32,117 bases of DNA from Bernardetiaceae bacterium (GTDB lineage Bacteria; Bacteroidota; Bacteroidia; Cytophagales; Bernardetiaceae), in NCBI GenBank assembly GCA_020832465.1, contig JAFIER010000166.1, positions 1 through 32,117 on the forward strand, read 5' to 3'. This document shows, one piece after another, positions 3,100-32,117 of this stretch; position 1 is the stretch's first letter, and every line of letters begins with the position of its first letter. Position numbers and translations under genes: made by a program. Below the pieces are notes generated by a model, which searched no databases, was not told where the DNA came from, and saw nothing but the letters and a program-made list of their open reading frames with translations.

Positions 3100-3132
3100 A
3101 TAAATAACATTGCTCAAAGAAATGTTATTTCT
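3100..3132. repeat. 33-bp palindrome, TAACA type A
   Basis: The left 15-mer is ATAAATAACATTGCT, the spacer CAA and the right 15-mer AGAAATGTTATTTCT. The two halves pair with each other apart from two positions. It lies 38 bp after the plug gene, so it could end or protect that transcript, but it has no clear T-tract. Confidence 0.8.
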
Positions 3133-3187: not shown

Positions 3188-3220
3188 AAAACTAACAGTT
3201 CTCAAAGAACTGTTAGTTCT
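3188..3220. repeat. 33-bp palindrome, type B
   Basis: The left 15-mer is AAAACTAACAGTTCT, the spacer CAA and the right 15-mer AGAACTGTTAGTTCT. It is the second element in the same 296-bp intergenic space. Relative to type A, the stem bases change on both strands so pairing is preserved. Confidence 0.8.
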
Positions 3221-6221: not shown

Positions 6222-6254
6222 AGCACTAACAGTGCTCAAAAAACTGTTAGTGCT
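6222..6254. repeat. 33-bp palindrome, type C
   Basis: The left 15-mer is AGCACTAACAGTGCT, the spacer CAA and the right 15-mer AAAACTGTTAGTGCT. It lies 57 bp after the ackA-pduL stop. Confidence 0.8.
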
Positions 6255-6893: not shown

Positions 6894-6947
6894 TTTAGCT
6901 ATTAGAACTGACATTTTTTTGAAATATGTCAGTTCTAATAGCTAAAT
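6894..6947. terminator. Long hairpin containing a 33-bp-family element (terminator)
   Basis: A 21-bp arm (6894-6914) pairs with 6926-6946, with T-rich sequence after the right arm. Its core 6904-6936 follows the same 6-3-6-3-6-3-6 plan as the dispersed palindromes, here AGAACT/GAC with GTC/AGTTCT. The inner bases AT also pair. It probably ends the DUF2480 transcript ahead of rpsA. Confidence 0.8.
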
Positions 6948-9144: not shown

Positions 9145-9202
9145 CAAAAAAAACAAAAACAGTCTTCGTTACTTGATTACATCGTATATAGACAAGGATT
9201 AT

Positions 9203-9589
9203 ATGGCACAACAGAAAGAAAAAAAAGAGGTATTGCACTACTCGCAAGAAGACCTCAGAGAATTTGAAGTGATTATCAATGAAAAGCTCGCTAAGTCCCG
9301 AGATGAGCTCGAACACCTTAAATCCTCAATCCTACGCGCTGAGGGTGAAAGCAATCGCAGCACCTTAGGTAACTTTGATGACGGTGCCGATGCCTTAGAA
9401 AAAGAACAGCTCAACCAACTCGCAGCCCGTACGCAAAAATTTATTGCAGGTCTCGAACGTGCGCTTTTCAGAATCAAAAATGGAACCTATGGAATCTGCA
9501 TAGATACAGGAAAACTTATTCCAAAAGAACGCTTACGTGCAGTCCCACATACACAGCAGTGTATTGAGGCTAAAATGAACCGTAAGTAG
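9203..9589 (+). CDS. TraR/DksA-family transcriptional regulator, two-Cys variant
   Basis: The 128-residue protein has a long N-terminal coiled-coil (about residues 10-90, LREFEVIINEKLAKSRDELE) with a central FDDGADALEKEQL loop like the DksA acidic tip, and a C-terminal domain GICIDTGKLIPKERLRAVPHTQQCIEAK. DksA-type proteins enter the RNA polymerase secondary channel and adjust transcription with ppGpp. The usual four zinc-binding Cys are reduced to Cys99 and Cys120, so zinc binding may be lost; such variants are common in this phylum. Start ATG 9203 was preferred over an in-frame TTG at 9173, which lies too near the promoter. Single gene with a hairpin after it. Confidence 0.85.
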   Translation: MAQQKEKKEVLHYSQEDLREFEVIINEKLAKSRDELEHLKSSILRAEGESNRSTLGNFDDGADALEKEQLNQLAARTQKFIAGLERALFRIKNGTYGICIDTGKLIPKERLRAVPHTQQCIEAKMNRK

Positions 9590-9604: not shown

Positions 9605-9645
9605 GTTCAACTTTGGTAAAGTTCGTAACTTTGCCAAAGTTGAAC
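9605..9645. repeat. Palindrome with the same 33-bp plan but different sequence
   Basis: Core 9609-9641 reads AACTTT, GGT, AAAGTT, CGT, AACTTT, GCC, AAAGTT: exactly the 6-3-6-3-6-3-6 layout of the TAACA family, with unrelated bases. The pairing is extended by GTTC (9605-9608) and GAAC (9642-9645). It follows the dksA-like stop by 15 bp and may act as its terminator. Confidence 0.75.
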
Positions 9646-9713: not shown

Positions 9714-10301
9714 TTGGAAAATATAGCACCTCATATAGAAGCACTTATTTTTTGTGCTGAAGCACCTATTGCACTTGCTGAAATCAAACAATGCTTGGAA
9801 GAAAAACTCCAAACTAATGTCCCTGATAATCATATAAAGGAAGCAGTAGAGTTACTTATGCAAAGATACGAAGCAGAAGAGTTTGCTATACAAATAAGAA
9901 AAGTAGCCGGAGGATACTGCTTTAGAAGCAAAAATCAATACGAAGCCGTAGTATCTACATTATTGAGCCAAAGGGCAAGGAGAAGGCTATCCAAAGCTGC
10001 CTTAGAAACATTAGCCGTAATCGCTTATAAGCAACCCGTAACAAAATCTTTTATAGAACAGTTAAGAGGTGTAGGCTGCGATTATAGCATTCAAAAACTT
10101 TTAGATAAAGAGCTTATCATTATCAAAGGAAAAGATAAAAGCCCAGGAAGACCATTGCTTTATGGTACGTCCGAAAAATTTATGCACTATTTTGGAATAG
10201 ATAACCTCAACGACCTACCGCTACCACAAGACGTTGATAGCGAGAGCCCATTAGCAGACTCAGATCAAGAAGGCACGCCCACTGCTTCTAATAATGCCTA
10301 A
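9714..10301 (+). CDS. scpB: Segregation and condensation protein B
   Basis: The 195-residue protein has the two winged-helix domains of ScpB: an N-terminal IEALIFCAEAPIALAEI block and a second with LSKAALETLAVIAYKQPVTKSFIEQLRGVGCDY, ending KSPGRPLLYGTS before a low-complexity acidic tail. ScpB with ScpA and SMC forms the bacterial condensin complex for chromosome segregation; scpA is not in the window. The only start compatible with the conserved N-terminus is TTG at 9714. An ATG at 9709 is out of frame and ends after five codons, overlapping the TTG. Confidence 0.92.
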   Translation: MENIAPHIEALIFCAEAPIALAEIKQCLEEKLQTNVPDNHIKEAVELLMQRYEAEEFAIQIRKVAGGYCFRSKNQYEAVVSTLLSQRARRRLSKAALETLAVIAYKQPVTKSFIEQLRGVGCDYSIQKLLDKELIIIKGKDKSPGRPLLYGTSEKFMHYFGIDNLNDLPLPQDVDSESPLADSDQEGTPTASNNA

Positions 10302-11589: not shown

Positions 11590-11622
11590 AGAACTAACAG
11601 TTTTTCGGAAACTGTTAGTTCT
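11590..11622. repeat. 33-bp palindrome, type B
   Basis: Left 15-mer AGAACTAACAGTTTT, spacer TCG, right 15-mer GAAACTGTTAGTTCT, fully self-complementary as one stem. It is 17 bp after the pseudouridine synthase stop. Confidence 0.82.
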
Positions 11623-11640
11623 TGATGCTTAGCACATTAT

Positions 11641-11673
11641 AGAAATAACATTTCTCAAAGAAATGTTATTTCT
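11641..11673. repeat. 33-bp palindrome, type A consensus copy
   Basis: Left 15-mer AGAAATAACATTTCT, spacer CAA, right 15-mer AGAAATGTTATTTCT. It is the second element of a tandem B-A pair; the space after the plug gene carries the pair in the order A-B. It is identical to the copy at 22539. Confidence 0.85.
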
Positions 11674-13095: not shown

Positions 13096-13128
13096 AGAAA
13101 TAACATTTCTTTGAGAAATGTTATTTCT
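13096..13128. repeat. 33-bp palindrome, type A, between convergent genes
   Basis: Left 15-mer AGAAATAACATTTCT, spacer TTG, right 15-mer AGAAATGTTATTTCT. The spacer is the complement of the usual CAA, so the element is in reverse orientation. It occupies the 49-bp gap between the convergent permease and glucosaminidase genes, with a T-run after it, a position suited to a two-way terminator. Confidence 0.85.
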
Positions 13129-17468: not shown

Positions 17469-17501
17469 AGAAATAACATTTCTTAGAGAAATGTTATTTC
17501 T
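17469..17501. repeat. 33-bp palindrome, type A
   Basis: Left 15-mer AGAAATAACATTTCT, spacer TAG, right 15-mer AGAAATGTTATTTCT. It is 94 bp beyond the 3' end of the minus-strand enoyl-CoA isomerase gene and before the propeller-OmpA gene. Confidence 0.85.
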
Positions 17502-22538: not shown

Positions 22539-22571
22539 AGAAATAACATTTCTCAAAGAAATGTTATTTCT
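22539..22571. repeat. 33-bp palindrome, type A consensus copy
   Basis: Identical to the copy at 11641-11673: AGAAATAACATTTCT, CAA, AGAAATGTTATTTCT. It follows queA and precedes the NuoL-like gene. Confidence 0.85.
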
Positions 22572-26775: not shown

Positions 26776-27036
26776 TTACTTCTCTTCTTTATCCAAACCG
26801 TCTTTTATCTCTTGTACCTTTTCCTCGCTCAAGCCTGTGAGTTCGGCAGTCATTCCTATAGAAAAACCTTTTGCTAAACAAGCTAAGGCAAACTTAATTT
26901 GAGCTTCTTCTAGCCCAACTCCTTTTCCTTGCAAATAAACCTCATCTTGTTCGATGTCATATCCAATAGTTCCCCTATTTCCTAATTCGTTTTGAATAAT
27001 GTTTGGTAATTGATTTCGCAGACGAGCTAAAATTAA
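26776..27036 (-). pseudogene. Duplicated 3' fragment of an Rpn-family nuclease gene
   Basis: The minus strand reads LILARLRNQLPNIIQNEL and continues for 87 codons to a stop at 26776, parallel to the last third of the intact gene to its right. The first part (26943-27035) differs from 27293-27385 at only three positions at a fixed 350-bp offset; the rest has diverged and lacks the GIEEGKAA repeats, having a short GKGVGLEEAQ instead. There is no start and no nuclease core, so it is a remnant. The intact gene's stop codon lies inside this repeat. Confidence 0.8.
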
Positions 27037-27962
27037 AGGCTACCTGTCTCATTTTTATCCATATCGTCTTTGAGTTTTTGCACCTGTTCTTTGCTCAAGC
27101 CTGTAAGCTCAACGGTCATTTCAAGAGAGAGTCCTTTTAACAAGCAAGAAATAGCAAAATCGAGTTGAGCCTTTTCTATTCCCTTTTCTATTCCCTTTTC
27201 TATACCCTCTTCTATTCCAGCGGCTTTTCCCTCTTCTATTCCAGCGGCTTTCCCCTCTTCTATTCCAGCTCCTTTCCCCTTCAAGTACAATTCATCTTGT
27301 TCGATGTCATATCCAATAGTTCCCATATTTCCTAATTCGTTTTGAATGATGTTTGGTAATTGATTTCGCAGACGAGCCAAAATTAAGAGCTGTCTGACAT
27401 ACTTATTTAACGCTGTTTTATCGCTTTTTAGTTGCGACAAACGTGTTAAAATTTTGCGAACCACAGCCTCACGAGTCTCTTCGCCAAAATCCGCCAGCAC
27501 TGCCATAATGACTTCTTCTGCGTGTTCGGATTCCAAAAACTCTTCGTAAGAATAGTCCCGAAAGGATTTGAGTACGAAGCCCTTAAATATTTCAGAGGGT
27601 TCAAGTGTTGAGCGCATGTTACTCGGCTTTTCGCCTAAATAATACACTACCTGATACACGGGCATTTGATATTTTTTTTGTAAAATAGCATGATACTCTT
27701 GCATACGAAATATCATTTTATCTTCGTCATGCGCCTGAAATTCTAATTGCAGAATAAATTCTTCATTCTCTGTAGTCGTAATTTGCAGCAGAAAATCAGA
27801 CTCTCGCTCCAGCGTAGTTTGCAATTTGTCTTTGATAAAGCGATGCGCTTTTATTTCAAATCCAAACTGACGTTTTGAAAGTTTTAGTACATAAGCTACG
27901 ATATTTTCTTTCAAGATTTTATCGTAAGCATTTTGTTCATTTTTAGGTTTTTCTTTTGCCAT
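27033..27962 (-). CDS. Rpn-family recombination-promoting nuclease/putative transposase
   Basis: The 309-residue protein matches the PD-(D/E)XK (PDDEXK_2) Rpn family: ERESDFLLQI with Asp56 and LQLEFQAHDE with Glu74 and Gln76 form the expected active-site set, followed by RMQEYHAILQKKY, the Y-VVYYLG block and a helical C-terminal region. In E. coli, Rpn proteins nick DNA and promote RecA-independent recombination (established for RpnA-type proteins). Residues 231-264 are a run of GIEEGKAA and GIEKGIEK repeats, ahead of a C-terminal LTGLSKEQVQKLKDD motif. It begins about 20 bp from an RHS core scar and its last codons overlap a partial duplicate of itself. Start ATG 27962. Confidence 0.87.
   Translation of the reverse strand: MAKEKPKNEQNAYDKILKENIVAYVLKLSKRQFGFEIKAHRFIKDKLQTTLERESDFLLQITTTENEEFILQLEFQAHDEDKMIFRMQEYHAILQKKYQMPVYQVVYYLGEKPSNMRSTLEPSEIFKGFVLKSFRDYSYEEFLESEHAEEVIMAVLADFGEETREAVVRKILTRLSQLKSDKTALNKYVRQLLILARLRNQLPNIIQNELGNMGTIGYDIEQDELYLKGKGAGIEEGKAAGIEEGKAAGIEEGIEKGIEKGIEKAQLDFAISCLLKGLSLEMTVELTGLSKEQVQKLKDDMDKNETGSL
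27171..27274 (-). repeat. Micro-repeat inside the Rpn gene (GIEEGKAA/GIEK)
   Basis: Two units of GIEEGKAA are followed by GIEEGIEKGIEKGIEK. The DNA repeats in step (tandem TCTATTCC-type units on the plus strand), so the length can change by slippage. Rpn proteins commonly carry such variable glycine-glutamate-lysine runs. The truncated duplicate to the left has none. Confidence 0.75.
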
Positions 27963-27982: not shown

Positions 27983-28048
27983 AGCATCACGAAGATAATG
28001 CGTTTTTTTCGTAATTGCAACTATTTCGCCCTCGATTTCTTCATTTTT
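27983..28048 (-). pseudogene. 66-bp RHS core scar, identical to part of the RHS gene
   Basis: By eye these 66 bp are identical to 31679-31744. On the minus strand they encode NEEIEGEIVAITKKTHYLRD, the core segment just upstream of the tip junction in the RHS gene. There is no remaining frame. The Rpn ATG lies about 20 bp beyond, so the scar marks a site where RHS sequence once continued. Confidence 0.85.
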
Positions 28049-30546: not shown

Positions 30547-32117
30547 TATACAAAATTTGGTTAATAATTTCAATCGAAACTTCTGTAGCACTCGTGCGTA
30601 TGCTTATATCAATAGTAGAAATATTTTTGTCCGCACTCTCTTTAACAACTCCCCATAACTCTTTATATAGTTTTCGGCTTTGAGCCTTACTATAACCATA
30701 AGCTTCTGCAACACTTTTAGAATATTTACGCACCTCCTTTTTTATATCTCTTTCAGCAGCCTTAAAAGCTTTTATAGCTTTTTTACGTGCATGCTTATTT
30801 AGTTCTCCTTTGGCTTTGCTACCAACAACCCCACCTATCATAGAAGAAGGAATACCTATAACAGCATCTGTTACTACTTCAAGAGTTGAGAATTTTGTCC
30901 TATCTTCAAATAAAAATTCCCAAGCCTGTCCAACTATTGACTGTGCACCACCTGCTGCAAATCCACTAGCACCATTAACAACAATAGCGCTTGTGCCAGT
31001 AAGTCCCACACCAGCAGTTAATCCACCAGCGACAATCCAAGCACCAGAACCAATTATAGTGCCAGCAGTAGCACCCGTTAGAGCTCCTTTTCCAGCACCT
31101 TTTAGCTTTTTTTTGAAGTTGCCTTTTGTAGTAAAAAAGCCAATTACTCCTCCTGCTACACCACCTATTAAAGCTCCTGCACCTGCGCTTACTAAAAGTG
31201 GAACGTCCCCAGCTGGGTCAGCAAAACCAATCGGATTATTGCGATTGACAGCATATGAATTTTCCCATTCCACAAAAACAGGATCCACATTCCATCGCCT
31301 CGCCACCCTGCTATCATACTGCCAAAACTCCGCCGTATAAGTATCGGGCGCAATTTCGGGCGTTTTTTCTTGGGTATTGAATCCAAAACGATACACATCA
31401 AGAGCCACCATCCTCTCCCCCATAGCCATACCAAAAGCATAATAATCGGTTTCCGATACGGCACGGGTAATATAACTATTCGTAGATACCGAACCTTCTT
31501 TGTTGTCCGAGACGACGACCAAGACATTGCCCAAATGATTGGATAACTCAAAGAACTTTTTGCCCAAAGTACGGCGTTTTTTTGGGTTTTCACCACGAAC
31601 CACTCCCAAGCGACTACTCCCATAAACCGTCCACTCCGACAAACTTTCGTCTTCGTAAGTCGCCAGTACATTGCCAGTAGCATCACGAAGATAATGCGTT
31701 TTTTTCGTAATTGCAACTATTTCGCCCTCGATTTCTTCATTTTTTATGATTTTTTTGAGGGAGCGATTGCCCAAAGCGTCGTATTGATAGAATATCTGTG
31801 CTTCGGATTTGGTTACGGAAGCGATTTTGCCGTAGGTGTTCCACTCGATTTCGAGGACATCATCTTCGGGATTGCTCGTGAGATTGCCGATAGCATCGTA
31901 GCTGTAGCTCTGATTGCCAGCTACGCCTGTGGGGTCGCCGCTCAGGTCGTGGACACGGTGGAGGCGATTGTTGAGCAGCGTATTATAATCGTACTGCAAA
32001 TCATCAATCAAATCTTCCAATTTATTTCTACGACTTAGACTTAGAATATTACCATTCGCATCGTAGCTATATCGGCTCGCATAACTCGTCGCTGAGGATT
32101 GACTATGGGCTGTTTTG
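30506..32117 (-). CDS. RHS-repeat protein with C-terminal toxin-like tip, 5' end outside window
   Basis: The frame is open to the window edge: the bases past 32020 still encode YD-repeat sequence (SRYSYDANGNILSLSRRNKLE), so the 5' part lies beyond 32117. Visible RHS/YD units include QSYSYDAIGNL, YQYDALGNRSLKK and the core HYLRDATGNVLATYED, TVYGSSRLG, LSNHLGNVLVVVSDN and RRWNVDPVFVEWENSYAVNRNNPIGFADPAGD. After DPAGD comes a Gly/Ala-rich, TM-like region (about 120 residues), then a basic, mostly helical end (HARKKAIKAFKAAERDIKKE to EEKRK) with no recognised enzyme motif. This is the toxin tip delivered by an RHS shell. It overlaps the downstream immunity candidate. Confidence 0.87.
   Translation of the reverse strand, partial: KTAHSQSSATSYASRYSYDANGNILSLSRRNKLEDLIDDLQYDYNTLLNNRLHRVHDLSGDPTGVAGNQSYSYDAIGNLTSNPEDDVLEIEWNTYGKIASVTKSEAQIFYQYDALGNRSLKKIIKNEEIEGEIVAITKKTHYLRDATGNVLATYEDESLSEWTVYGSSRLGVVRGENPKKRRTLGKKFFELSNHLGNVLVVVSDNKEGSVSTNSYITRAVSETDYYAFGMAMGERMVALDVYRFGFNTQEKTPEIAPDTYTAEFWQYDSRVARRWNVDPVFVEWENSYAVNRNNPIGFADPAGDVPLLVSAGAGALIGGVAGGVIGFFTTKGNFKKKLKGAGKGALTGATAGTIIGSGAWIVAGGLTAGVGLTGTSAIVVNGASGFAAGGAQSIVGQAWEFLFEDRTKFSTLEVVTDAVIGIPSSMIGGVVGSKAKGELNKHARKKAIKAFKAAERDIKKEVRKYSKSVAEAYGYSKAQSRKLYKELWGVVKESADKNISTIDISIRTSATEVSIEIINQILYNEGDKHIGEEKRK

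Follow-up and report, generated by a model that had tools for sequence, protein, structure and literature searches.

The hairpin at positions 9605-9645 of the window, as the whole analysed stretch of 32,117 nucleotides from a Bernardetiaceae bacterium is called here, is probably a miniature REPIN-like element, composed of two inverted 15-nt REP-like palindromes located 3 nt apart and putatively spread by a REP-associated tyrosine transposase (RAYT). This reading draws on the geometry of the element, its over-representation, the variety of sequences found under one layout, the spacing of the doublet and a physical link with RAYT genes in other genomes. A doublet of 15-nt REPs, each with a 6-bp stem and a 3-nt loop, could also fold as a single 15-bp hairpin, and elements of such geometry in the Bacteroidia would represent the non-autonomous repeats of a clade of RAYTs (TnpAREP-type HuH nucleases).

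The sequence of the hairpin reads GTTC-AACTTT-GGT-AAAGTT-CGT-AACTTT-GCC-AAAGTT-GAAC, in agreement with the bases quoted in the preliminary description, and contains a 33-bp unit of the AACTTT family with a 6-3-6-3-6-3-6 plan (9609-9641; hairpins and units are given without strand). GTTC and GAAC, outside this unit, lengthen the stem to 19 pairs around a CGT triloop, with one G.T pair because GGT and GCC are incompletely complementary. Folded as RNA, the segment 9590-9675 reaches -29.3 kcal/mol (z -7.4; none of 200 shuffles was equally good), and the 33-mer folded as single-stranded DNA reaches -11.5 kcal/mol. The left 15-nt arm (9609-9623, plus strand; 6-bp stem) and the right arm, its inverted copy (9627-9641, plus strand), also fold alone as single-stranded DNA, each at -2.3 kcal/mol and with triloops GGT and GCC, respectively. 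The hairpin occupies the gap between two plus-strand genes: a dksA/traR-type zinc-finger gene upstream (9173-9589; PF01258, E 7.6e-11), whose stop lies 19 bp before the 33-bp unit, and scpB downstream (9714-10301; PF04079, E 9.1e-52), with a TTG start 72 bp past it. An Rfam search returned no match over the gathering score, only microRNA models (18-25 bits, with gathering scores of 75-97), and no plan hairpin was present in 5-21 kb each of eight relatives sharing the downstream ScpB, which at 46-60% identity are too distant to inform.

From the perspective of its own genome (4.6 Mb in 289 contigs, the sole genome of its genus in the comparison set), the element is not the one palindrome of its kind that it was first taken for. 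The pattern AACTTTNNNAAAGTTNNNAACTTTNNNAAAGTT matched 11 times in this genome at up to 2 mismatches with free centres (control 0), and the AACTTT arm, AACTTTGNCAAAGTT, has 38 sites at up to 1 mismatch (control 3). ORF calls place 20 of the 21 AACTTT sites inspected between genes and the other within an ORF left open by the end of its contig; four sites consist of a single arm or show another spacing at the register printed. The usual centre of these copies is GAC/GTC, and that of the 9605-9645 copy GGT/GCC.

A second family, named after its TAACA core, shares the plan, and the earlier claim that the AACTTT copy is unrelated to it in sequence holds (4 of 15 arm positions are equal to the TAACA arm). 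TAACA-type cores at up to 1 mismatch number 934 in the window's genome and 11 in a genome of a different genus of the same family (G008), and are absent from nine further genomes searched at that threshold. Within the window, copies of this family are located at 3100-3132 (same plan), 3188-3220 (AAAACT/AGAACT variant), 6222-6254 (AGCACT variant), 11590-11622 and 11641-11673 (first and second of a composite pair), 13096-13128, 17469-17501 and 22539-22571. A degenerate copy with a GAC/GTC centre (6904-6936), seen by eye and under the scan threshold, lies within a longer inverted repeat (6894-6946). TAACA hairpins, among them those of 11590-11673 and of many other loci in the genome, are often flanked by a few exchangeable repeat modules, forming BIME-like composites. 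Such composites resemble enterobacterial BIMEs, named in the available text of Quentin et al. 2018 (PMC6006769), in that palindromic units are joined by defined linker modules, and differ from them in their shorter units, different sequences and lack of a tag. In a sample from the same genome, at least 7 outer pairs extend the stem in 58 of the 210 plan hairpins. Some of these extensions are of apparently locus-unique sequence, which would be compatible with an element placed in the loop of a pre-existing hairpin or with outward growth. Other repeats in the window include tandem 12-bp units and longer repeats in or beside a minus-strand ORF (repeats at 26781-27396, ORF at 27033-27962), and two identical 66-bp stretches 3.7 kb apart (27983-28048 and 31679-31744).

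The preliminary description had argued that the layout itself is under selection or produced by a defined mechanism, and had proposed a search for it, with any bases, against randomised DNA. With a full stem of at least 13 of 15 pairs and arm pairs of at least 10 of 12, this search was positive: the 6-3-6-3-6-3-6 plan gave 163 matches in 794,419 bases of the window's genome and none in three resamplings from a second-order Markov model, although 163 overstates the genome-wide density because the 20 scanned stretches were partly chosen for TAACA copies. When 80 layouts were scanned in the same genome, gaps (3,3) gave 179 matches and the shifts of this layout by one base 126 and 86; the layout ranking next had 11, and none went above 4 in the resampled set. 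Together with the unrelated sequences that keep the plan elsewhere, these results support the argument for selection or a mechanism, for which single copies of two sequences are insufficient.

The arrangement of the TAACA arms is equally strict. TAACA-N13-TGTTA occurs 166 times exactly, against 1, 4, 6 and 1 times for spacers of N11, N12, N14 and N15, respectively, and the inverted order (166) dominates over the direct and outward orders (2 each). Arms occur in pairs in 373 cases, with 18-bp spacing in 355, and alone in 31; with each arm able to fold alone, the elements are inverted doublets in the sense used for REPINs, and copies of both families are, like REPs, repetitive, extragenic and palindromic. 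The two folds put forward in the preliminary description, a single long stem or a pair of triloop hairpins in tandem, correspond to both folds of REPINs in the available text of Bertels and Rainey 2011 (PMC3116915), which proposes that the stable long hairpin is poorly recognised and that a clover of two small hairpins is recognised. Regarding which of these is conserved, 162 distinct TAACA 33-mers evaluated over five position sets gave 461 cases with both stems, 77 with the long stem only, 11 with the arms only and 261 with neither, and the corresponding figures for 66 RAYT-linked hairpins were 330, 37, 0 and 29. Since the long stem outlasts the arms where symmetry breaks (77 against 11), the long hairpin is the stricter constraint and the arm palindromes come second.

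The same plan appears with other bases in other genomes. At up to 2 mismatches CTTTGNCAAAGTTNNNAACTTTGNCAAAG was found in 39 of the 291 genomes of the order (control 0 among the matches listed), and the AACTTT plan, AACTTTNNNAAAGTTNNNAACTTTNNNAAAGTT, in 53 of the 395 genomes of the class (control pattern in 5). The centres of AACTTT copies vary and pair mutually (GAC/GTC, GGC/GCC, TCC/GGA, CCA/TGG, CCG/CGG and ACC/GGT). A class-wide search with free gaps serves here for its gap distribution only, its counts being weak because the reversed control matched many genomes: among the 150 matches listed, in which one palindrome may count as a plus row and a minus row, 86 have gaps of 3,3, 12 have gaps of 3,4 and the next commonest combination has 5. 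Sixty-two of these 86 listed rows carry pyrimidine-N-purine loops. GNC loops, beside YNR ones, accompany AACTTT arms in two genomes (G599 and G619) and are also found among TAACA copies.

Scans free of any sequence requirement recovered ACCGAT-GCC-ATCGCT-TAA-AGCGAT-GGC-ATCGGT four times in 100 kb of one genome (G523), AGACCT-GCC-AGGTTT-TTA-AAACCT-GGC-AGGTCT plus a near copy in 200 kb of another (G224), one (3,3) match in G388 and none at (3,3) in G612. No match with any layout appeared in 100 kb each of G155 and G294 or in 50 kb of E. coli K-12. At one locus (L127, 3103-4571; G198:C8) the gap between two genes contains the same plan hairpin seven times in a row, with a distance of exactly 161 bp in three of the six steps. 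The hairpin clusters had raised the possibility of integron attC sites, an idea dropped because the loci are by eye devoid of a cassette array.

Some plan hairpins lie within or next to ORFs roughly 200 codons long, which encode RAYTs. A profile built from five of these proteins (A2) has relatives in 104 of the 395 class genomes at E<=1e-10, from which 31 RAYT loci were taken (the 30 best-scoring of the 104 positive genomes plus L111). By the sequence-free scan, 30 of the 31 carry a plan hairpin inside the gene or within 150 bp of it, the exception being L231; five of the loci had seeded the profile, and 25 of the other 26 have the hairpin. Ten resamplings of the same loci gave 1 plan match in total, and 30 loci of other Y1 transposases, taken from 18 plan-bearing genomes, have no plan hairpin. 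Repeats like that of the window thus flank RAYT genes in related genomes, with a lower frequency in the sister genus, which belongs to the window's own family: there the plan, with a loop of 3 or 4, is found at 4 of 17 RAYT loci with E<=1e-30 (L248, L249, L259 and L262), and several of the others have hairpins of different geometry, or none over 12 pairs.

According to their position at the 31 loci, 20 hairpins are inside the gene, 16 upstream, 15 downstream, 2 across a gene end and 13 farther away. Their arms vary among loci (AAACCT-TCA-AGGTTT, AACCCT-GAC-AGGGTT, AACTTT-TCC-AAAGTT, ATACTT-CAA-AAGTTT and others). Eighteen of the 20 internal copies share one codon frame, and at the 12 loci with both internal and flanking copies 28-33 of 33 bases agree between the two, and comparison with other loci gives means of 19-23; this agreement was equalled in 0 of 20,000 permutations (p 5e-5). 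At the level of genomes, 38 have both the AACTTT plan and a RAYT, 15 the plan only, 66 a RAYT only and 276 neither, which gives an odds ratio of 10.6 that ignores shared ancestry; 15 of the 53 plan-bearing genomes therefore have no RAYT match at E<=1e-10. At one RAYT locus (L135, 14948-19998; G330:C31), the transposase gene contains an in-frame hairpin and begins directly after a 1544-codon ORF that is Cas9-like as judged by eye.

The proteins are related to known TnpAREP. Three of them (P0003-P0005) match the NCBIfam model REP_Tyr_transpos (NF047646) at E 3e-17 to 3.5e-14, under its curated 80-bit cut-off, and the sole PDB match of a 29-member profile (A3) is TnpArep (4er8, E 2.5e-7). Their subclass is less clear-cut. 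In the available text of Quentin et al. 2018 (PMC6006769), TnpAREP subclass 2.6 (RAYT group 5) carries the signature NH[LIV]H, WQ and YIH[QN]NP, and resembles the present case in being mostly from Bacteroidetes and in having atypical flanking structures that lack GT[AG]G and recur elsewhere in the genome. The 29 proteins depart from that signature, with NHFH in 26, a GSLF-like motif without W and YIH[QN]NP in only 4. Subclass 2.1 (RAYT group 1) is described there by NH[YF]H, FQ and Y[IV]HLNP, and the present proteins resemble it in NH[YF]H and in the F that replaces W (28 of 29; GSLFQ in 2 and YIHLNP in 5). Judged by sequence motifs, they would thus fall outside subclass 2.6 and agree in part with subclass 2.1, for which, unlike 30 of the 31 loci here, the same text reports that REP-like sequences were detected neither automatically nor manually. 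That text regards intragenic REP copies as a peculiarity of subclass 2.4 and does not describe the nested layout.

Regarding the repeats themselves, REPINs are pairs of oppositely oriented REPs that presumably owe their mobility to RAYTs. In the available text of Bertels and Rainey 2011 (PMC3116915) they share with the present elements inverted short REP palindromes in one hairpin, an extragenic location, a predominance of doublets, the link with RAYTs and the two folds. They differ in size, since the elements here have 33 bp in total and a 3-nt gap and in the GI doublet of that study 71 bp separate the first residues of the two 16-mers, as well as in that the arms here are near-perfect 6-3-6 palindromes, GTAG is missing and so is, from the window's genome, a close RAYT of the clade. 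A GTAG-type foot is absent from 9605-9645, where the flanks are GTTC and GAAC, and no GTAG-type motif emerged from the flank profile of 100 oriented copies, so that the foot typical of REPs and REPINs is lacking. GTAG- or CGTC-tagged REPs (Di Nocera et al. 2013, PMC3733652), in the available text, likewise comprise short palindromes, head-to-head dimers and some single-species families, although they are defined by a terminal tag that the present elements miss. The nested palindrome is a REPIN cut to its minimum: a 15-nt REP, 3 nt and an inverted 15-nt REP. No description of the fixed 6-3-6-3-6-3-6 layout was found in the main texts searched, mostly of open-access papers, and within that scope the novelty appears to lie in the fixed nested layout, the REPIN/RAYT kind being already known.

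Plan copies in the window's genome are extragenic, only 3 of 179 being inside ORFs (mechanical calls), and are unevenly distributed among gap types, with 36 in 14.4 kb of convergent gaps and 23 in 31.3 kb of divergent ones (2.5 copies per kb in convergent, 1.6 in co-directional and 0.74 in divergent gaps). Their median distance is 61 nt to gene 3' ends and 170 nt to 5' ends. This placement fits the behaviour of REPs, and it also speaks for an intrinsic, possibly two-way, terminator or an mRNA 3'-end stem behind dksA, repeated through convergence or the copying of a good terminator, as do the location of the window copy 19 bp past the dksA stop and its stable fold. An intrinsic terminator was set aside on account of the absent U-tract: no T-run follows the 9605-9645 stem on either strand, and among 100 oriented copies the mean number of T in the first 10 nt is 3.25 downstream and 3.5 upstream, with A or G predominating at +1 and +2 after the stem. 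A terminator, moreover, has no need of palindromic arms, of a fixed 3-nt gap or of copies in transposase genes, and this explanation as a whole is unlikely.

The REPIN-like reading has to accommodate the lack of a resident RAYT. In the window's genome, profile A2, with 8 of 13 candidates scored, detected no member of the RAYT clade at E<=1e-10, and profile A3, with all 22 candidates scored, found only a partial match on contig C105 (E 4.9e-9). The gene in question is class-2-like, with motifs NHVH and YIIQNP, and no plan hairpin lies around it; a cognate RAYT flanked by the repeat in the same genome, as in typical REP systems, was thus not found. This class-2-like Y1 transposase gene (L126/L042; C105, 1060-1767) adjoins a methylase-like ORF, by eye a possible restriction-modification locus. 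The best RAYT profile match in G008, which shares the TAACA family, has an E of only 0.03, and the RAYT-like loci of Aureibacter, Legionella and Collinsella plasmids have no plan hairpin. The tie of the TAACA family to any RAYT is one of geometry only, and, in a genome without a close RAYT, the 9605-9645 copy is linked to RAYTs by its kind and not via a resident gene.

This situation leaves room for a neutral origin, in which small non-autonomous repeats were moved by another enzyme, IS200-type or unknown, their nested palindromic ends being due to chance and the link with RAYTs to hitch-hiking. Two Y1 genes with a YIxxQxxHH motif in the window's genome, the long modular flanks around many TAACA copies and the missing cognate RAYT are compatible with it. 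IS200-type or other Y1 genes were nevertheless rejected as the cognate, as none of the three Y1 genes of this genome or of the 30 Y1 loci mentioned above has a plan hairpin; the contrast of 0 of 30 with 30 of 31 RAYT loci, and the sequence shared by internal and flanking copies of one RAYT locus, make this origin quite unlikely. Finally, a double operator, with two palindromic 15-bp sites of species-specific sequence bound at 18-bp spacing by a dimeric protein, would account for the palindromic arms and the strict spacing (355 of 373 paired arms), and is highly improbable given that the asymmetric centre is nearly always inverted (166 against 2 direct and 2 outward), which protein sites do not need, that broken symmetry spares the long stem (77 against 11, and 37 against 0 in RAYT-linked hairpins) and that copies favour gene 3' ends and occur in frame inside transposase genes.

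For the REPIN-like element, the RAYT would bind the single-stranded long hairpin or the two small hairpins, cut and re-join, and this cutting and re-joining would spread copies to extragenic sites. The sequence of the repeat may drift in step with its RAYT, and a single layout would then come to carry many sequences. The 9605-9645 copy would then be a resident of an old, orphan population, comprising AACTTT and TAACA copies and without a close RAYT of the clade in the assembly, and a local role, such as one at the dksA mRNA 3' end, would be secondary if it exists. On the scale of the phylum, the prospects are about even that the RAYT clade follows a geometry code, in which every RAYT has as its partner a nested palindrome of 33-34 bp with fixed spacings (6-3-6-3/4-6-3-6) and genome-specific sequence, the in-frame 11-codon copy changes together with the flanking copies, and populations outlast a lost or diverged RAYT.

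The REPIN-like reading ties a high-copy intergenic hairpin of the Bacteroidia, hitherto unexplained, to a named transposase family. Since the rule linking hairpin and RAYT needs no sequence similarity, such repeats can be detected from their geometry alone. The in-frame copy within the transposase gene offers a direct handle on the joint change of RAYT and repeat, and the window's genome, without a RAYT of the clade, may serve as a natural case for asking how such repeats persist.
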